Assembly (NCBI GenBank): GCA_020725405.1
Contig: DYFB01000015.1
Location: 1-32,156, forward strand
Direction: 5' to 3'
Source of the DNA: Symbiobacterium sp.
GTDB lineage: Bacteria; Bacillota; Sulfobacillia; UBA995; UBA9673
DNA length: 32,156 bases
The notes beneath the pieces were generated by a model. It was not told the origin of the DNA. It did no database searches and saw only the letters and a list, made by a program, of their open reading frames with translations. The position numbers and the translations under genes were made by a program. Below, one piece after another: positions 16,196 to 29,436 of this stretch (the stretch's first letter is position 1; every line of letters begins with the position of its first letter).

Positions 16196-16238
16196 ATGCT
16201 CGCCCCGCTGGTCCCGGCCGGGAAGGGAGGAGATGCGG

Positions 16239-16925
16239 GTGGCCGACATCCTTGCCTTCGCCGCGCATCCGGACGACGCGGAGATTGGGGCGGGGGGGGC
16301 CCTCGCCCGGCACGCCCGTCAGGGCTACGAAGTGGTCGTGGTCGACCTCACCCTCGGGGAGCTCGCCTCGAACGGAAGCCCCGAAGAGCGTCGGCGGGAG
16401 TCCACCGAAGCCGCGCGCATCCTCGGGCTGGCGGCCCGGGAGTGCCTGCGGCTCCCCGACCGGGACCTCGAACCGACGGCGGAGCGGGTGCGGACCGTGG
16501 CCGAGGCCGTCCGCAAGTGGCGTCCTCGTCTCGTCCTCGGCCCGTCCACCGAGGACCGCCATCCCGATCACGCGGCGGCCGCCCGCCTTGTCCGCGAGGG
16601 CGTCTTCAGCGCCGGGCTCCCGCGCTACCCGGCGCGGGGAGAGGCCCACCGGGTCGGGCGACTTGTGCGGTACTTCGTCAACGCTCCTGGACGCCCGGAC
16701 TTCGTCGTCGACGTGTCCGAGGTCTACGAGGTGAAGCTCGCCGCCCTGGCCGCCTACTCTTCGCAGTTCGGGCCCGGCTGGCACGCGACTCCTCTGAACC
16801 GGGGCTATCTCGAGTGGGTCGAGCTCCGGGACTCCTGGTACGGCAGTCTCGTCGGCGCGGCGAGGGCCGAAGGGTTCGAGTGGGACGGTACGCTCGCCGT
16901 ATCCGACCTGGTCACACAGCTCTGA
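16239..16925 (+). CDS. bshB1: Bacillithiol biosynthesis deacetylase BshB1
   Basis: A PIG-L/LmbE-type zinc deacetylase that removes the acetyl group from GlcNAc-malate, the second step of bacillithiol synthesis. About 228 aa. The metal and catalytic motif AHPDDAEIG lies at residues 9-17, the downstream HPDH is in STEDRHPDHAAAARL, and TLGELASNGSPEERRRES matches the family's T-x-GE-x-(G/S)-x-x-G-(T/S)-x-x-x-R pattern. The C-terminal EVKLAALAAYSSQF is typical of BshB1. An ATG at 16233 lies only 2 bases from GGGAGG; the GTG at 16239 is 8 bases away and is preferred, with little effect on the protein. bshA follows after 68 bases and confirms the pathway. bshC is not in the window. Confidence 0.9.
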   Translation: MADILAFAAHPDDAEIGAGGALARHARQGYEVVVVDLTLGELASNGSPEERRRESTEAARILGLAARECLRLPDRDLEPTAERVRTVAEAVRKWRPRLVLGPSTEDRHPDHAAAARLVREGVFSAGLPRYPARGEAHRVGRLVRYFVNAPGRPDFVVDVSEVYEVKLAALAAYSSQFGPGWHATPLNRGYLEWVELRDSWYGSLVGAARAEGFEWDGTLAVSDLVTQL

Positions 16926-16993
16926 ACCTGCCCGACCCCTCGGGTTCCGGGCTCGATCCGCGCGCTCCGGGGTGGTCTGGAAGGAGGAGAACC

Positions 16994-18154
16994 GTGAGAA
17001 TCGGCATCACCTGCTACCCGTCTTACGGGGGAAGCGGGGTGGTGGCCTCCGAGCTCGGGCGGCACCTTGCCCGCCGGGGTCACTCCGTCCACTTCATAAC
17101 CTACGACCTGCCGTTCCGCCTGGCCCGCTTCGAGCAGAACATCGTCTTCCACGGCGTCGAGGTTCCGAGCTATCCCCTTTTCAAGTACCCGCCGTACCTC
17201 CTGGCGCTGGCGAGCAAGATGGTCGAGGTCGCCCGCTACGAAGAGCTCGACATCCTGCACGTTCACTACGCGATACCCCATGCGGCGAGCGCCTACCTCG
17301 CCCGACAGATCCTGGCTTCGGCGGGGAGCGGCCGACGCCCGGCGGTCGTTACGACCCTCCACGGGACCGACATCACCCTGGTGGGCTCGGACCCCTCCTT
17401 CGTGGACATAGTCGCCTTCAGCATCGACCAGAGCGACGGCGTGACCGCGGTCAGCCACGACCTCCGGAGGCGGACCCTCGAGAGGTTCCGGGTGCGGGGC
17501 GATATCCGAACGATCCACAACTTCGTCGACCCCGACGATTACCGGGACCTCGGCCGGGAAGCCTGCCGGCGCTATCTCGCGGGCCCCGGGGAACTGGTCG
17601 TGACCCACATCTCGAACTTCCGGGCGGTGAAGAGGATCGAGGTCGTCATCGGGGTCTTCGCGTCCGCCTGCCGGGACCTGAAGGCCCGGCTCCTTCTGGT
17701 CGGAGACGGCCCGGACGTGCCGAAAGCCCACCAGGAGGCTGCGCGCCTTGGCGTCGGCGACCGGGTGCGCTTCATGGGTCGCCAGGAGCAGGTCACGGAG
17801 ATACTGAGCTGCTCGGACGCGTTCCTGCTCCCCTCGCTCGAGGAGAGCTTCGGCCTGGCCGCCCTGGAGGCCATGGCGGCCGGGGTCCCTGTCGTCGCGT
17901 CCCGCGTCGGTGGGCTGCCTGAGGTCGTCGGGGAGGGAGAGGGCGGCTTCCTTTACCCTCCGGACGATACGGAGGCGATGGCCGCCGGACTCAGAGCCCT
18001 TCTGACCGACCCGGATCTGCGCCGGAGCTGCGGGAGCCTCGCGCGCGAGCGCGCCTTCCGCCTTTTCTCGAGCGAGGTGATCGTCCCGCGCTACGTGAGC
18101 TTTTATGAAGAAGTCCTCTCCGCCCGAGGGACCTCAGGCGAGGGTCCTGGGTGA
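16994..18154 (+). CDS. bshA: GlcNAc-malate synthase BshA
   Basis: A GT4-family glycosyltransferase joining UDP-GlcNAc to L-malate, the first step of bacillithiol synthesis. 386 aa from the GTG at 16994, behind AAGGAGG at 6 bases. The N-terminus MRIGITCYPSYGGSGVVASE is near-diagnostic for BshA. HYAIPHAASAYLAR, TTLHGTDITLVGSD and HISNFRAVKRIEVVI are also family stretches. The donor-site motif EESFGLAALEAMAAGVPV carries the E-x7-E pair. The frame is open back to 16196, but that part shadows bshB1. It lies between bshB1 and rimO, and its stop overlaps the rimO GTG (GTGA). Confidence 0.95.
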   Translation: MRIGITCYPSYGGSGVVASELGRHLARRGHSVHFITYDLPFRLARFEQNIVFHGVEVPSYPLFKYPPYLLALASKMVEVARYEELDILHVHYAIPHAASAYLARQILASAGSGRRPAVVTTLHGTDITLVGSDPSFVDIVAFSIDQSDGVTAVSHDLRRRTLERFRVRGDIRTIHNFVDPDDYRDLGREACRRYLAGPGELVVTHISNFRAVKRIEVVIGVFASACRDLKARLLLVGDGPDVPKAHQEAARLGVGDRVRFMGRQEQVTEILSCSDAFLLPSLEESFGLAALEAMAAGVPVVASRVGGLPEVVGEGEGGFLYPPDDTEAMAAGLRALLTDPDLRRSCGSLARERAFRLFSSEVIVPRYVSFYEEVLSARGTSGEGPG

Positions 18155-19764: not shown

Positions 19765-19773
19765 TGCTATAAT
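19765..19773 (+). promoter_or_regulatory. Extended -10 promoter before the membrane protein/AAA protease pair
   Basis: TGCTATAAT is a perfect -10 hexamer (19768-19773) with the TG extension one base upstream. The -35 position (GCAGGT at 19745-19750, 17-base spacing) is poor, as is usual for extended -10 promoters. It is a local AT-rich island in GC-rich DNA, about 180 bases before the next start. The gap 19678-19949 otherwise shows only a small hairpin near CCGCGAAACGCGG and no gene. Confidence 0.65.
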
Positions 19774-19949
19774 TATGTGAACTTGCAGGTCGCGTCCGCG
19801 TCTTGCCGGCGGGGCGGATCGCGTGCCGCGCTCCGGCGCCGGCTCCACGACGACCACGCTCCGGGTCCTCCTGGCGAGTCGCTCCCCCGACGTCGACGGT
19901 CGGCGGTCCCAGCCAGGGAGGCTCTGGAGAGCTTCGAAGGGGGCTCCGG

Positions 19950-20525
19950 ATGAGCTTCCGAGGAATGCGGGTCCCGGTCATCGCTCTCGTCCTTGTGGTC
20001 TGCCTCGGGTTTCTCTTCGGGGCAAGGTGGGTCTACCAGAACCAGGCCCTGAACCGACCCCTCGAGCAGGCTATCGGCGCGGTTCCCGGCGTTCTCGACG
20101 TTGCCGTCACCCAGCGGAGTGACGCTCTGGTCGTGCGGGTCCGGGTGGGCGAGACGCCGAGGCTCGAGGAGTTCGTCTCCGCCCTCTCCCGGGTCATCCT
20201 GGCCGTGGAGGGGGACCAGCGGGTCGAGCTTCGCTTGAGCGACAGCCGGACCGAGTCCCTTCAGGACGTCTACTACGATTTCCACTTCCACCTCCAGGAG
20301 GCCGCGGCCACGGGCCGCTACTCAGCTCTCCCGGCCCGGCTGGAGGAGGTGGCCGCCTCGAACCGCCTGACGAGGTACAGGGTCTTCGTCGGCCCCGAGT
20401 ACGTCTACGTTCAGCTTCACCAAGAGGCGGCTTCGTTCTACGAGATCCTCCCGCGTGACCCGGGCCGTTCGTCGCCGTCAGCGGCCTCGTCGCTGAAAGT
20501 GACCGTCTGTCCCTGGGAGGGATAG
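19950..20525 (+). CDS. Single-pass membrane protein of unknown function, paired with the AAA protease
   Basis: I do not recognise this 191-aa protein. From the ATG at 19950, preceded by GAAGGGGG, it has a short basic N-terminus, one hydrophobic segment (about 7-25, RVPVIALVLVVCLGFLFGA), then about 165 soluble residues predicted outside the membrane. The soluble part alternates beta-like (VLDVAVTQRSDALVVRVRVG) and helical stretches and contains a His/Tyr-rich patch, DVYYDFHFHLQEAA. One Cys lies near the C-terminus (VTVCPWEG). An extended -10 promoter lies upstream. The FtsH-like gene starts 5 bases after its stop, and that gene's ribosome site is inside this gene. I infer a partner, adaptor or substrate receptor of the protease; a lone sporulation membrane protein is the alternative. 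Confidence 0.7.
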   Translation: MSFRGMRVPVIALVLVVCLGFLFGARWVYQNQALNRPLEQAIGAVPGVLDVAVTQRSDALVVRVRVGETPRLEEFVSALSRVILAVEGDQRVELRLSDSRTESLQDVYYDFHFHLQEAAATGRYSALPARLEEVAASNRLTRYRVFVGPEYVYVQLHQEAASFYEILPRDPGRSSPSAASSLKVTVCPWEG

Positions 20526-20530
20526 GCCGT

Positions 20531-22117
20531 TTGATCAAAGAGATCGCCATCGGGAGCAGCCTGGCCCTGGTCATTTTCCTGACCTGGCAGGGGTACAACG
20601 TGATGCCGGTCATCTTCCTGGCCGGGCTTCTCTTCGTCCTGCTCCGGACGGCCGGCCTGTCCAACCTCCTCGGCAGTTCCCGAACGGGCACGGTGGTTGA
20701 GAAGTCTTCGACGAGCCGGGTCACCTTCGACGATATCGGCGGCCAGGCGGCAGCCAAGCGCGAGCTTCTCGAAGCCCTTGAGTTCATCACCGATCGGGAC
20801 CGGATAAGGCGCCTGGGGATAAGACCGCTGAAGGGCATCCTCCTCACCGGCCCGCCAGGGACGGGCAAGACCCTGATGGCCAAGGCGGCGGCCCACCACA
20901 CGAACTCGGTTTTCCTCTCGGCTTCCGGGAGCGAGTTCATCGAGGTCTACGCCGGGGTCGGGGCCCAGCGGGTAAGGCAGATCTTCGCCCGGGCCCGCGA
21001 GAGCGCCCGCCGGCAGGGCGGGGCGAGCGCCATCGTTTTCATCGACGAGCTCGAGGTCCTGGCCGGGCGACGGGGCCAGCACTCGGGTCACCTCGAGTAC
21101 GACCAGACCATAAACCAGCTTCTTGTGGAGATGGACGGCCTCGGCAACGACGACGAGGTGACCGTCCTGGTCATCGGGGCCACGAACCGCTTCGACCTCC
21201 TCGATCCGGCCGTCCTCCGCCCAGGGCGCTTTGACCGGGTGGTCCGCGTGGACCTTCCCAACCGCGAGGAGCGCCTGGCGATTCTCAAAATCCACACGGC
21301 CGGTAAGCCGCTTGACCCGGCGGTCGACCTGGACGACGTTGCCAAGCAGACCTTCGGGTTCTCCGGGTCGCACCTCGAGAGCGTGGCTAACGAGGCCGCC
21401 ATCCTGGCCTTCCGCGAGGAGGCCTGGGTAATCAGGCAGGAGCACTTCGTCGAGGCGGTCGACAAGGTGATAATGGGCGAGAAGGTCGCCCGACAGCCGC
21501 GGGCTGAGGAGCTTGAGCGGGTGGCTGTCCACGAGCTCGGACACGCGGCCGTGGCCGAGCTCCGGCGCCCGGGATCGGTGTCAATGGTCAGCATCGCCCC
21601 GCGCGGGGGAGCCCTCGGCTACGTGCGGCAGACGCCCGAGGTCGACCAGTACCTCTACTCCCGCGAGGAGCTTGAAGAGCAGCTCGATATCGTTCTCGCC
21701 GGGTGTGTGGCCGAGGAGCTCTTCTGCGGGAGCCGCAGCACCGGGGCCATGAAGGACCTGGAGCAGGCTGTGGCCCTGGCCAAGCTGGTCGTCTCCGGGG
21801 GGATGTCCGAACTCGGCATCGTTCCGCAGGATCTCGTCCCGGCCTCGACGATGCATGAGGCCATCAGGGCGATCATCACCTTCCGGGAGGAGAAGGTCAG
21901 GGAGCTCCTGGGTGAGCGCAAGACGCGGCTCATGGCAGCCCGGGCCGTTCTTCTCGAGCGGGAGAGGCTCGAGGGCGACGAGTTCCGGGCGCTCCTGGGC
22001 ACAATGAAGCCGGGCCGGAAGGTCCGCTCGAGCCGGAGACGAAACCATCGCACCGATGATCGGCGAAGTCGTGTCCGTCGGGACCGAGCTCCTGCTCGGT
22101 CAGATAACCAACACTAA
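20531..22117 (+). CDS. FtsH-like AAA+ membrane metalloprotease lacking the extracytoplasmic domain
   Basis: A 528-aa AAA+ protein with an M41-type peptidase domain. Two hydrophobic segments (about 4-20 and 23-41) are separated by only a few residues (GYNVMP), so the roughly 70-residue extracytoplasmic domain of classical FtsH is absent. VTFDDIGGQAAAKREL opens the AAA module. Walker A is GPPGTGKT (107-114), the pore loop VYAGVGAQRVRQIF (FtsH usually has FVG), Walker B IVFIDE (168-173), and the arginine-finger region LRPGRFDR. The zinc site is HELGH (334-338) with a likely third ligand D409 in AMKDLEQAV; SIAPRGGALGY matches FtsH. The start is a TTG behind GGGAGGG at 9 bases. The Arg-rich C-terminus overlaps cinA by 62 bases. 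It is probably a paralogue of the housekeeping FtsH. Confidence 0.85.
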   Translation: MIKEIAIGSSLALVIFLTWQGYNVMPVIFLAGLLFVLLRTAGLSNLLGSSRTGTVVEKSSTSRVTFDDIGGQAAAKRELLEALEFITDRDRIRRLGIRPLKGILLTGPPGTGKTLMAKAAAHHTNSVFLSASGSEFIEVYAGVGAQRVRQIFARARESARRQGGASAIVFIDELEVLAGRRGQHSGHLEYDQTINQLLVEMDGLGNDDEVTVLVIGATNRFDLLDPAVLRPGRFDRVVRVDLPNREERLAILKIHTAGKPLDPAVDLDDVAKQTFGFSGSHLESVANEAAILAFREEAWVIRQEHFVEAVDKVIMGEKVARQPRAEELERVAVHELGHAAVAELRRPGSVSMVSIAPRGGALGYVRQTPEVDQYLYSREELEEQLDIVLAGCVAEELFCGSRSTGAMKDLEQAVALAKLVVSGGMSELGIVPQDLVPASTMHEAIRAIITFREEKVRELLGERKTRLMAARAVLLERERLEGDEFRALLGTMKPGRKVRSSRRRNHRTDDRRSRVRRDRAPARSDNQH

Positions 22118-29175: not shown

Positions 29176-29436
29176 ATGGAGGTTCTTAAGGTCTCGTCCA
29201 AGTCAAAGCCGAACTCGGTGGCCGGCGCACTTGCCGGGGTCCTGAGAGAGAAGGGGGCGGCGGAAATCCAGGCCATCGGGGCGGGAGCCCTGAACCAAGC
29301 GGTCAAGGCCGTCGCCATAGCCCGCGGTTTCGTCGCTCCGAGCGGGCTTGATGTCATCTGCATTCCGGCCTTCACGGATGTCGAGATAAACGGGGAGAAG
29401 AGGACGGCCATAAAGCTGACGGTCGAGCCCCGCTAG
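29176..29436 (+). CDS. spoVS: Stage V sporulation protein S
   Basis: A small (86 aa) Alba-like protein, highly conserved in spore formers and some relatives. It is needed for normal spore coat and cortex assembly and affects septation. The sequence is near the family consensus: MEVLKVSSKSKPNSVAGALA, IQAIGAGALNQAVKAVAIAR and INGEKRTAIKLTVEPR. The ATG at 29176 lies 8 bases after a perfect AAGGAGG. It is flanked by a sigma-H-type promoter and an intrinsic terminator, so it is probably a single-gene transcript in addition to any read-through from ymdB. It is the strongest marker of sporulation in the window. Confidence 0.97.
   Translation: MEVLKVSSKSKPNSVAGALAGVLREKGAAEIQAIGAGALNQAVKAVAIARGFVAPSGLDVICIPAFTDVEINGEKRTAIKLTVEPR

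Follow-up and report, generated by a model that had tools for sequence, protein, structure and literature searches.

A short FtsH-like protease without an extracytoplasmic domain and its near-obligate membrane-protein partner in Bacillota

Gene organization of the locus

The window analysed here is a stretch of 32,156 nucleotides from Symbiobacterium sp. (contig DYFB01000015.1), in which bshB1, bshA, rimO, the two genes of this study, cinA, thpR, recA, rny, the gene of a TIGR00282 phosphoesterase and spoVS all run in one direction. The first of the two genes (19950-20525) encodes a 191-residue protein, named UP here, and lies upstream of the second, which encodes a short FtsH-like protease. 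An earlier reading, made from the letters of the DNA (the sequence-only reading), had placed the pair between rimO and cinA, in agreement with the gene order of the window. It had also reported a gap of 5 bases between UP and the protease, as well as a protease ribosome-binding site inside the UP gene, and both lie where it had put them. The features of the locus are listed below.

19765-19782, + strand: putative promoter of the pair, an extended -10 (TGcTATAAT, 19765-19773) fused to TTATGTNAAC (19773-19782); from conservation upstream of UP
19937-19943, + strand: putative ribosome-binding site of UP, AAGGGGG; from the sequence
19950-20525, + strand: UP, single-pass membrane protein of 191 aa, ATG to TAG; from the ORF and a model
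20515-20521, + strand: ribosome-binding site of the protease, GGGAGGG, within the last codons of UP; from the sequence
20531-22117, + strand: short FtsH-like AAA+/M41 zinc protease, TTG start; from the ORF, Pfam, NCBIfam and a model
20534-20650, + strand: transmembrane hairpin, helices 2-19 and 25-40, turn GYNVMP; from AF2 and alignments
21530-21544, + strand: HELGH zinc motif, residues 334-338; conserved in 78/78
near 21755, + strand: third zinc ligand, D409; conserved in 78/78

The bacillithiol synthesis genes bshB1 and bshA (16233-18154) stand immediately before rimO, as they do in several related genomes. At the other end of the block, spoVS (29176-29433) lies downstream of rny and the phosphoesterase gene, an order that preserves a gene neighbourhood of Bacillus.

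The short protease lacks the extracytoplasmic domain of FtsH

A Pfam search of the protease returned matches above cut-off to AAA (1.7e-36), AAA_lid_3 and Peptidase_M41 (2.2e-27). The zinc site H334-E335-x-x-H338 and the third ligand D409 are identical in 78/78 relatives, as are Walker A K113, Walker B D172/E173, R230/R233 (arginine fingers) and the pore residue Y140, conservation of the pore motif being partly by construction because the loci were chosen on that motif. The AAA motor and the HELGH zinc site recognised in the sequence-only reading are thus both present, and what the gene encodes is a complete AAA+/M41 zinc protease with intact catalytic residues. With the NCBIfam FtsH equivalog model (TIGR01241) it scores 425 bits, below the cut-off of 600, and we therefore refer to it as FtsH-like and not as a standard FtsH.

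In the AF2 model of the protease (pLDDT 86.8) the two N-terminal membrane helices, residues 2-19 and 25-40, are joined by a turn of 5 residues, whereas 70-81 residues separate the two membrane segments in the canonical FtsHs of related genomes (n=30 proteins). The extracytoplasmic domain, of some 75 residues, is therefore missing, as the sequence-only reading had concluded from the nearly adjacent membrane segments, and the Pfam search found no PF06480 (FtsH_ext) match in the short protease. A separate, full-length FtsH does exist in the same genome: on another contig we found a canonical protein whose M41 domain is complete and which has both membrane segments and a normal extracytoplasmic domain. 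Residues 490-528 of the short protease, ~40 at its end, are unconserved, disordered in the model and overlap cinA (ATG at 22056), the conserved portion stopping near residue 489 (about 21997).

The protein is a member of the M41/FtsH superfamily that lacks the outside domain, one of the defining traits of FtsH, and falls short of the curated FtsH score. It shares with FtsH (HflB), the housekeeping AAA+ membrane protease, the AAA module, the second region of homology, the M41 HExxH plus Asp and the two membrane helices, and it differs in having a hairpin turn in place of the extracytoplasmic domain, a different pore loop (EVYAGVGAQRVR, against EMFVGVGASRVR in FtsH), a shorter C-terminal part and a small, near-obligate partner gene. 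In the tree, moreover, 56 short proteases group in one separate clade that includes 0 other M41 proteins (stem support 0.64). An altered N-terminal region is found too in the Yme1/i-AAA proteases, which are M41 AAA proteins whose N-domain is replaced in cis and which have one membrane helix; the short protease differs from them in keeping the hairpin and in probably having its outside part encoded separately.

UP and the short protease occur together

Among the 61 related genomes UP is present in 52, and the short protease comes directly after it in 28 of the 30 loci read, one of the 28 (L018) having a truncated protease. The two exceptions belong to one family: in G004 the protease lies 1.75 kb beyond UP, with an inserted nucleotidyltransferase-type cassette between them, while the M41 match of G005 lies on a different contig. 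Two or more M41 matches were found in 52/52 UP genomes and exactly one in eight of the nine UP-less genomes, the ninth (G024) having M41 fragments only; the association between UP and M41 copy number in the 61 related genomes, with G024 set aside, has a p of 4e-10. In G004 (L106:1792-5640) UP is preceded by PIN-domain and HicA genes, which are of mobile type, and by a 75-residue partial copy of UP. At L077 (genome G059) UP adjoins a short protease cut down to ~198 residues, which is either an assembly error or a pseudogene, and a second contig has another M41 fragment.

Since no part of the UP alignment is conserved well enough for a direct search, the named genomes were searched with the pore region of the protease alone, a search that is blind to UP. 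It yielded 80 loci, some of them from the same genomes as in the related set, which include Moorella, Sulfobacillus, Candidatus Fermentithermobacillus, Hydrogenispora and many other Bacillota. UP stands before the protease on the same strand in 80/80, and adjoins it directly in all except L106 (the G004 locus, 1.75 kb before), that is, in 79/80. The two genes overlap by 1, 4 or 8 bases in 62 of the 77 pairs whose starts could be placed, which is the mark of translational coupling.

In the phylum-wide set UP was detected in 272 of 398 genomes. The pore motif YAGxGAQ[KR] of the short protease, searched as a DNA pattern, occurs in 199/398 genomes, all of them UP-positive, and in 0/126 of the UP-negative ones, and in 29 of 30 UP-positive genomes without the pattern UP still adjoins a short protease. 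The single clear exception is L203, where UP stands beside rplU/rpmA and the short protease does not adjoin it. Some UP-negative genomes with spoIVA carry extra M41 genes, and 16 such loci were read, 3 of which proved to be fragments or a different protein. A diverged, overlapping UP of ~165 residues, with one N-terminal membrane helix, was found beside 9/9 of the short proteases in these genomes; as a control, UP was found beside 0/4 M41 paralogues in which the spacing of the outside domain is normal. The divergent paralogues of L223, L224, L225 (estimated 100% complete) and L238, which have 577-598 residues, normal outside-domain spacing and no UP, are a further FtsH lineage.

The same gene pair recurs in well over 100 genomes, far beyond chance, and its co-occurrence is class- and phylum-wide and near-obligate. 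Whether the two genes keep company elsewhere was left by the sequence-only reading as a matter to check, and UP adjoins nearly all homologues (28/30, 79/80 and 29/30 loci). The two-gene proteolytic module proposed in that reading is partly supported: the pairing is near-obligate, a separate FtsH exists and M41 proteins with an outside domain of their own have no UP beside them, and the two products are predicted to work together. Distance-matrix covariation between UP and the protease (partial Mantel) was uninformative, with an r of 0.17 after control that is not above that of neighbouring genes.

UP has a two-domain outside part in the model

No Pfam or NCBIfam family was found for UP. Its AF2 model, made with 76 relatives (pLDDT 90), contains one membrane helix (residues 8-33) and about 158 residues outside the membrane, in line with the single-pass protein with ~165 outside residues of the sequence-only reading. 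Two domains are seen in the modelled outside part: domain 1 (35-99), with an alpha-beta-beta-alpha-beta topology (H35-43, E48-56, E59-66, H72-87, E92-99), and domain 2 (102-168), with two helices and three strands. Domain 1 resembles domain 2 of PrgK (probability 1.00, target TM-score 0.69 at 2.8 A, though with E 0.05) and also the ring-building domain of EscJ; the fold matches of UP are all at E 0.02 or worse, these two lying at 0.02-0.05, and unrelated small alpha-beta folds (MamM, ribosomal S3) match it too. A PDB sequence search with the UP profile gave weak or low-complexity matches only.

In its modelled topology, domain 1 is like the ring-building-motif proteins (PrgK/EscJ, FliF, SpoIIIAG). 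UP differs from them in that no sequence relation was found and in carrying a single motif on a single-pass protein; moreover, the known members form much larger rings, whereas a predicted UP ring would presumably need 6-fold symmetry. Ring-building motifs form rings in FliF and related proteins (PMC8786727), and the ordinary FtsH outside domain is itself a hexameric ring, built of two helices and five strands (PMC13097134). Given this background and the modelled fold of UP, the natural reading would be that one ring has been replaced by another, a putative UP ring standing in for the outside ring of FtsH.

The pair is associated with the sporulation gene spoIVA

Of the 398 phylum genomes, 336 have spoIVA: 265/272 of those with UP and 71/126 of those without (odds ratio 29, p 1e-24, Fisher), several of these 71 carrying a diverged UP. 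Fisher tests ignore relatedness and the p-values are therefore too small, repeated co-loss being the better argument. Within the class, five of the eight spoIVA-less genomes (G006, G014, G036, G039 and G052) lack both UP and a second M41 gene, and only 4/53 spoIVA-positive genomes lack UP, against 5/8 of the spoIVA-less (p 0.001). Since G007, a congener of G006, and G011, from the family of G036 and G052, retain both UP and spoIVA, the two seem to have been lost together on separate occasions in G006 and in G036/G052. For thpR, a gene of the same neighbourhood that the class has mostly retained, there is no spoIVA-linked pattern (p 0.35). Seven UP genomes have no spoIVA, one of them estimated to be 100% complete (G163), and the pair is absent from some spore-former lineages, so that the link with sporulation is statistical and partly phylogenetic.

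A sporulation gene, spoVS, is also part of the gene block of the pair. Degradation of SpoIIE by FtsH in the mother cell has been reported for B. subtilis (PMC10990147), and by analogy a sporulation role for an FtsH-type protease seems reasonable. Spore formers keep the pair, and it tends to vanish together with spoIVA; its main job is therefore probably the turnover of membrane proteins in sporulation, and a two-subunit FtsH would probably be used in sporulating cells.

A two-subunit FtsH as the favoured interpretation

On balance we hold, with moderate confidence, that UP and the short protease make up one machine, a two-subunit FtsH in which UP is the extracytoplasmic part and which probably serves mainly to turn over membrane proteins during sporulation. 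The short protease would form a hexameric AAA+/zinc-protease ring, with nothing more than a helical hairpin as its membrane anchor. The single helix of UP would lie alongside the protease hairpins, and its two-domain outside part, with the domain resembling the ring-building motif, would be placed above the protease ring. There UP would take over in trans the tasks that ordinary FtsH performs in cis with its outside domain, organising an outer ring and gating or selecting membrane-protein substrates, and the housekeeping FtsH of the same cell would be separate from this machine. We infer a physical complex, and likewise its contacts, stoichiometry, ring geometry, gating, substrates and timing or stage in sporulation. 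A more specific version, which we put forward only tentatively, is a dedicated two-gene sporulation protease of spore-forming Bacillota, in which a separate ring-forming subunit caps a hairpin-anchored FtsH hexamer and an operon-specific promoter element (see below) drives the pair.

UP could instead be a dedicated adaptor or inhibitor and not a structural subunit, engaged part-time to bind membrane or cell-wall-side clients or to block the protease until a signal arrives. Small membrane proteins are among the known regulators of FtsH, and HflKC, LapB, YqgP and SpoVM are thought to act on ordinary FtsH as part-time adaptors or inhibitors. Like UP, HflK/HflC (SPFH) and other FtsH partners are separate single-pass membrane proteins that act from outside the membrane; UP differs from HflK/HflC in having no SPFH domain (no match at E 1) and in being paired with a protease that has no outside domain of its own. 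Domain 2 of UP (102-168) has no evident counterpart in FtsH and the gene overlap is compatible with roughly equal amounts of the two proteins, both of which would suit an adaptor. Adaptors, however, are not usually tied one-to-one to the loss of an enzyme domain, and UP accompanies only the domain-less protease, being absent beside M41 paralogues that keep the domain, so that we regard this explanation as rather unlikely.

A different origin would be gene fission, in which the outside domain that FtsH once carried became a gene of its own, UP, and was then enlarged. UP is expected to share with PF06480, a hexameric ring, its role and its position above the protease ring, and a weak profile alignment of UP residues 46-101 with the domain core is collinear; one of 76 UP relatives matches FtsH_ext, at E 0.023. 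The same profile comparison, however, has a probability of 14% and an identity of 2%, which is not significant and made us reject the idea that UP is this domain relocated. The best 50 fold matches of UP include no FtsH outside domain, and UP differs from PF06480 in standing as an independent protein that has a membrane helix as well as a second domain. Fission is on these grounds improbable. Least likely of all, and in our opinion very improbable, is that the two genes act independently and are merely neighbours in a conserved block (rimO-pgsA-cinA-recA-rny-spoVS), old and syntenic in many genomes as this block is; pgsA, cinA and thpR come and go while the pair persists, UP and the protease are lost together, and both are kept where a cassette splits them (L106).

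A second, shortened FtsH and its partner are carried by hundreds of Bacillota, mostly spore-forming, and the pair is apparently an undescribed, two-part version of a well-known protease. We found no description of an FtsH without outside domain plus a partner in the open-access literature, which is weak evidence of novelty; the searched passages of a review of FtsH evolution (PMC9020784) do not describe such a pair, nor do those of a census of sporulation genes (PMC3533761), in which FtsH is not mentioned. The role of the FtsH outside domain is still unsettled. With the outside part as a separate gene, it can be removed, swapped or restored without touching the protease, and what it contributes to assembly, to gating and to the choice of substrates would be open to direct tests. 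Should the link with sporulation be true, the pair would be an apparently undescribed protease of spore formation in Bacillota lineages distant from Bacillus (Moorella, Sulfobacillus, Candidatus Fermentithermobacillus and many uncultured ones); if UP does cap the protease as a ring, this would be the first FtsH with its extracytoplasmic ring as a separate, obligate subunit. UP itself is a family without a name, present in hundreds of species.

A putative promoter element upstream of the pair

The pair has its own conserved promoter-like element. Of 118 regions upstream of UP (which include duplicates of one genome), 49 contain the sequence TATGTNAA, where simple shuffles would give 1.8; it lies only in the sense orientation and at a varying distance from the -10. 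Exact TATAATTATGTNAAC has 15 occurrences in 121 genomes, and 12 of these precede UP. In the genome of the window TTATGTNAAC has 14 copies, against about 2 expected from composition (a rough estimate), and the reversed pattern has 0. The other TTATGTNAAC sites that were inspected mostly have no preceding TATAAT and no clear gene set downstream, and a general regulon operator was rejected on these grounds. It is the extended -10 TGnTATAAT joined to TTATGTNAAC that appears nearly operon-specific genome-wide. A direct repeat of the WalR/PhoP type was rejected because the spacing is not constant. A scan for consensus sigma-70 sites gave no match, in keeping with a promoter that lacks a consensus -35. 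In two related genomes (L241 and L252, near position 1500) a second TATAATTATGTTAAC precedes a gene that starts MSVDKAKKLEALTNFTAMAGQNPAFAYLLGFLTGQ and has no Pfam family, and the promoter element may therefore have another target there.
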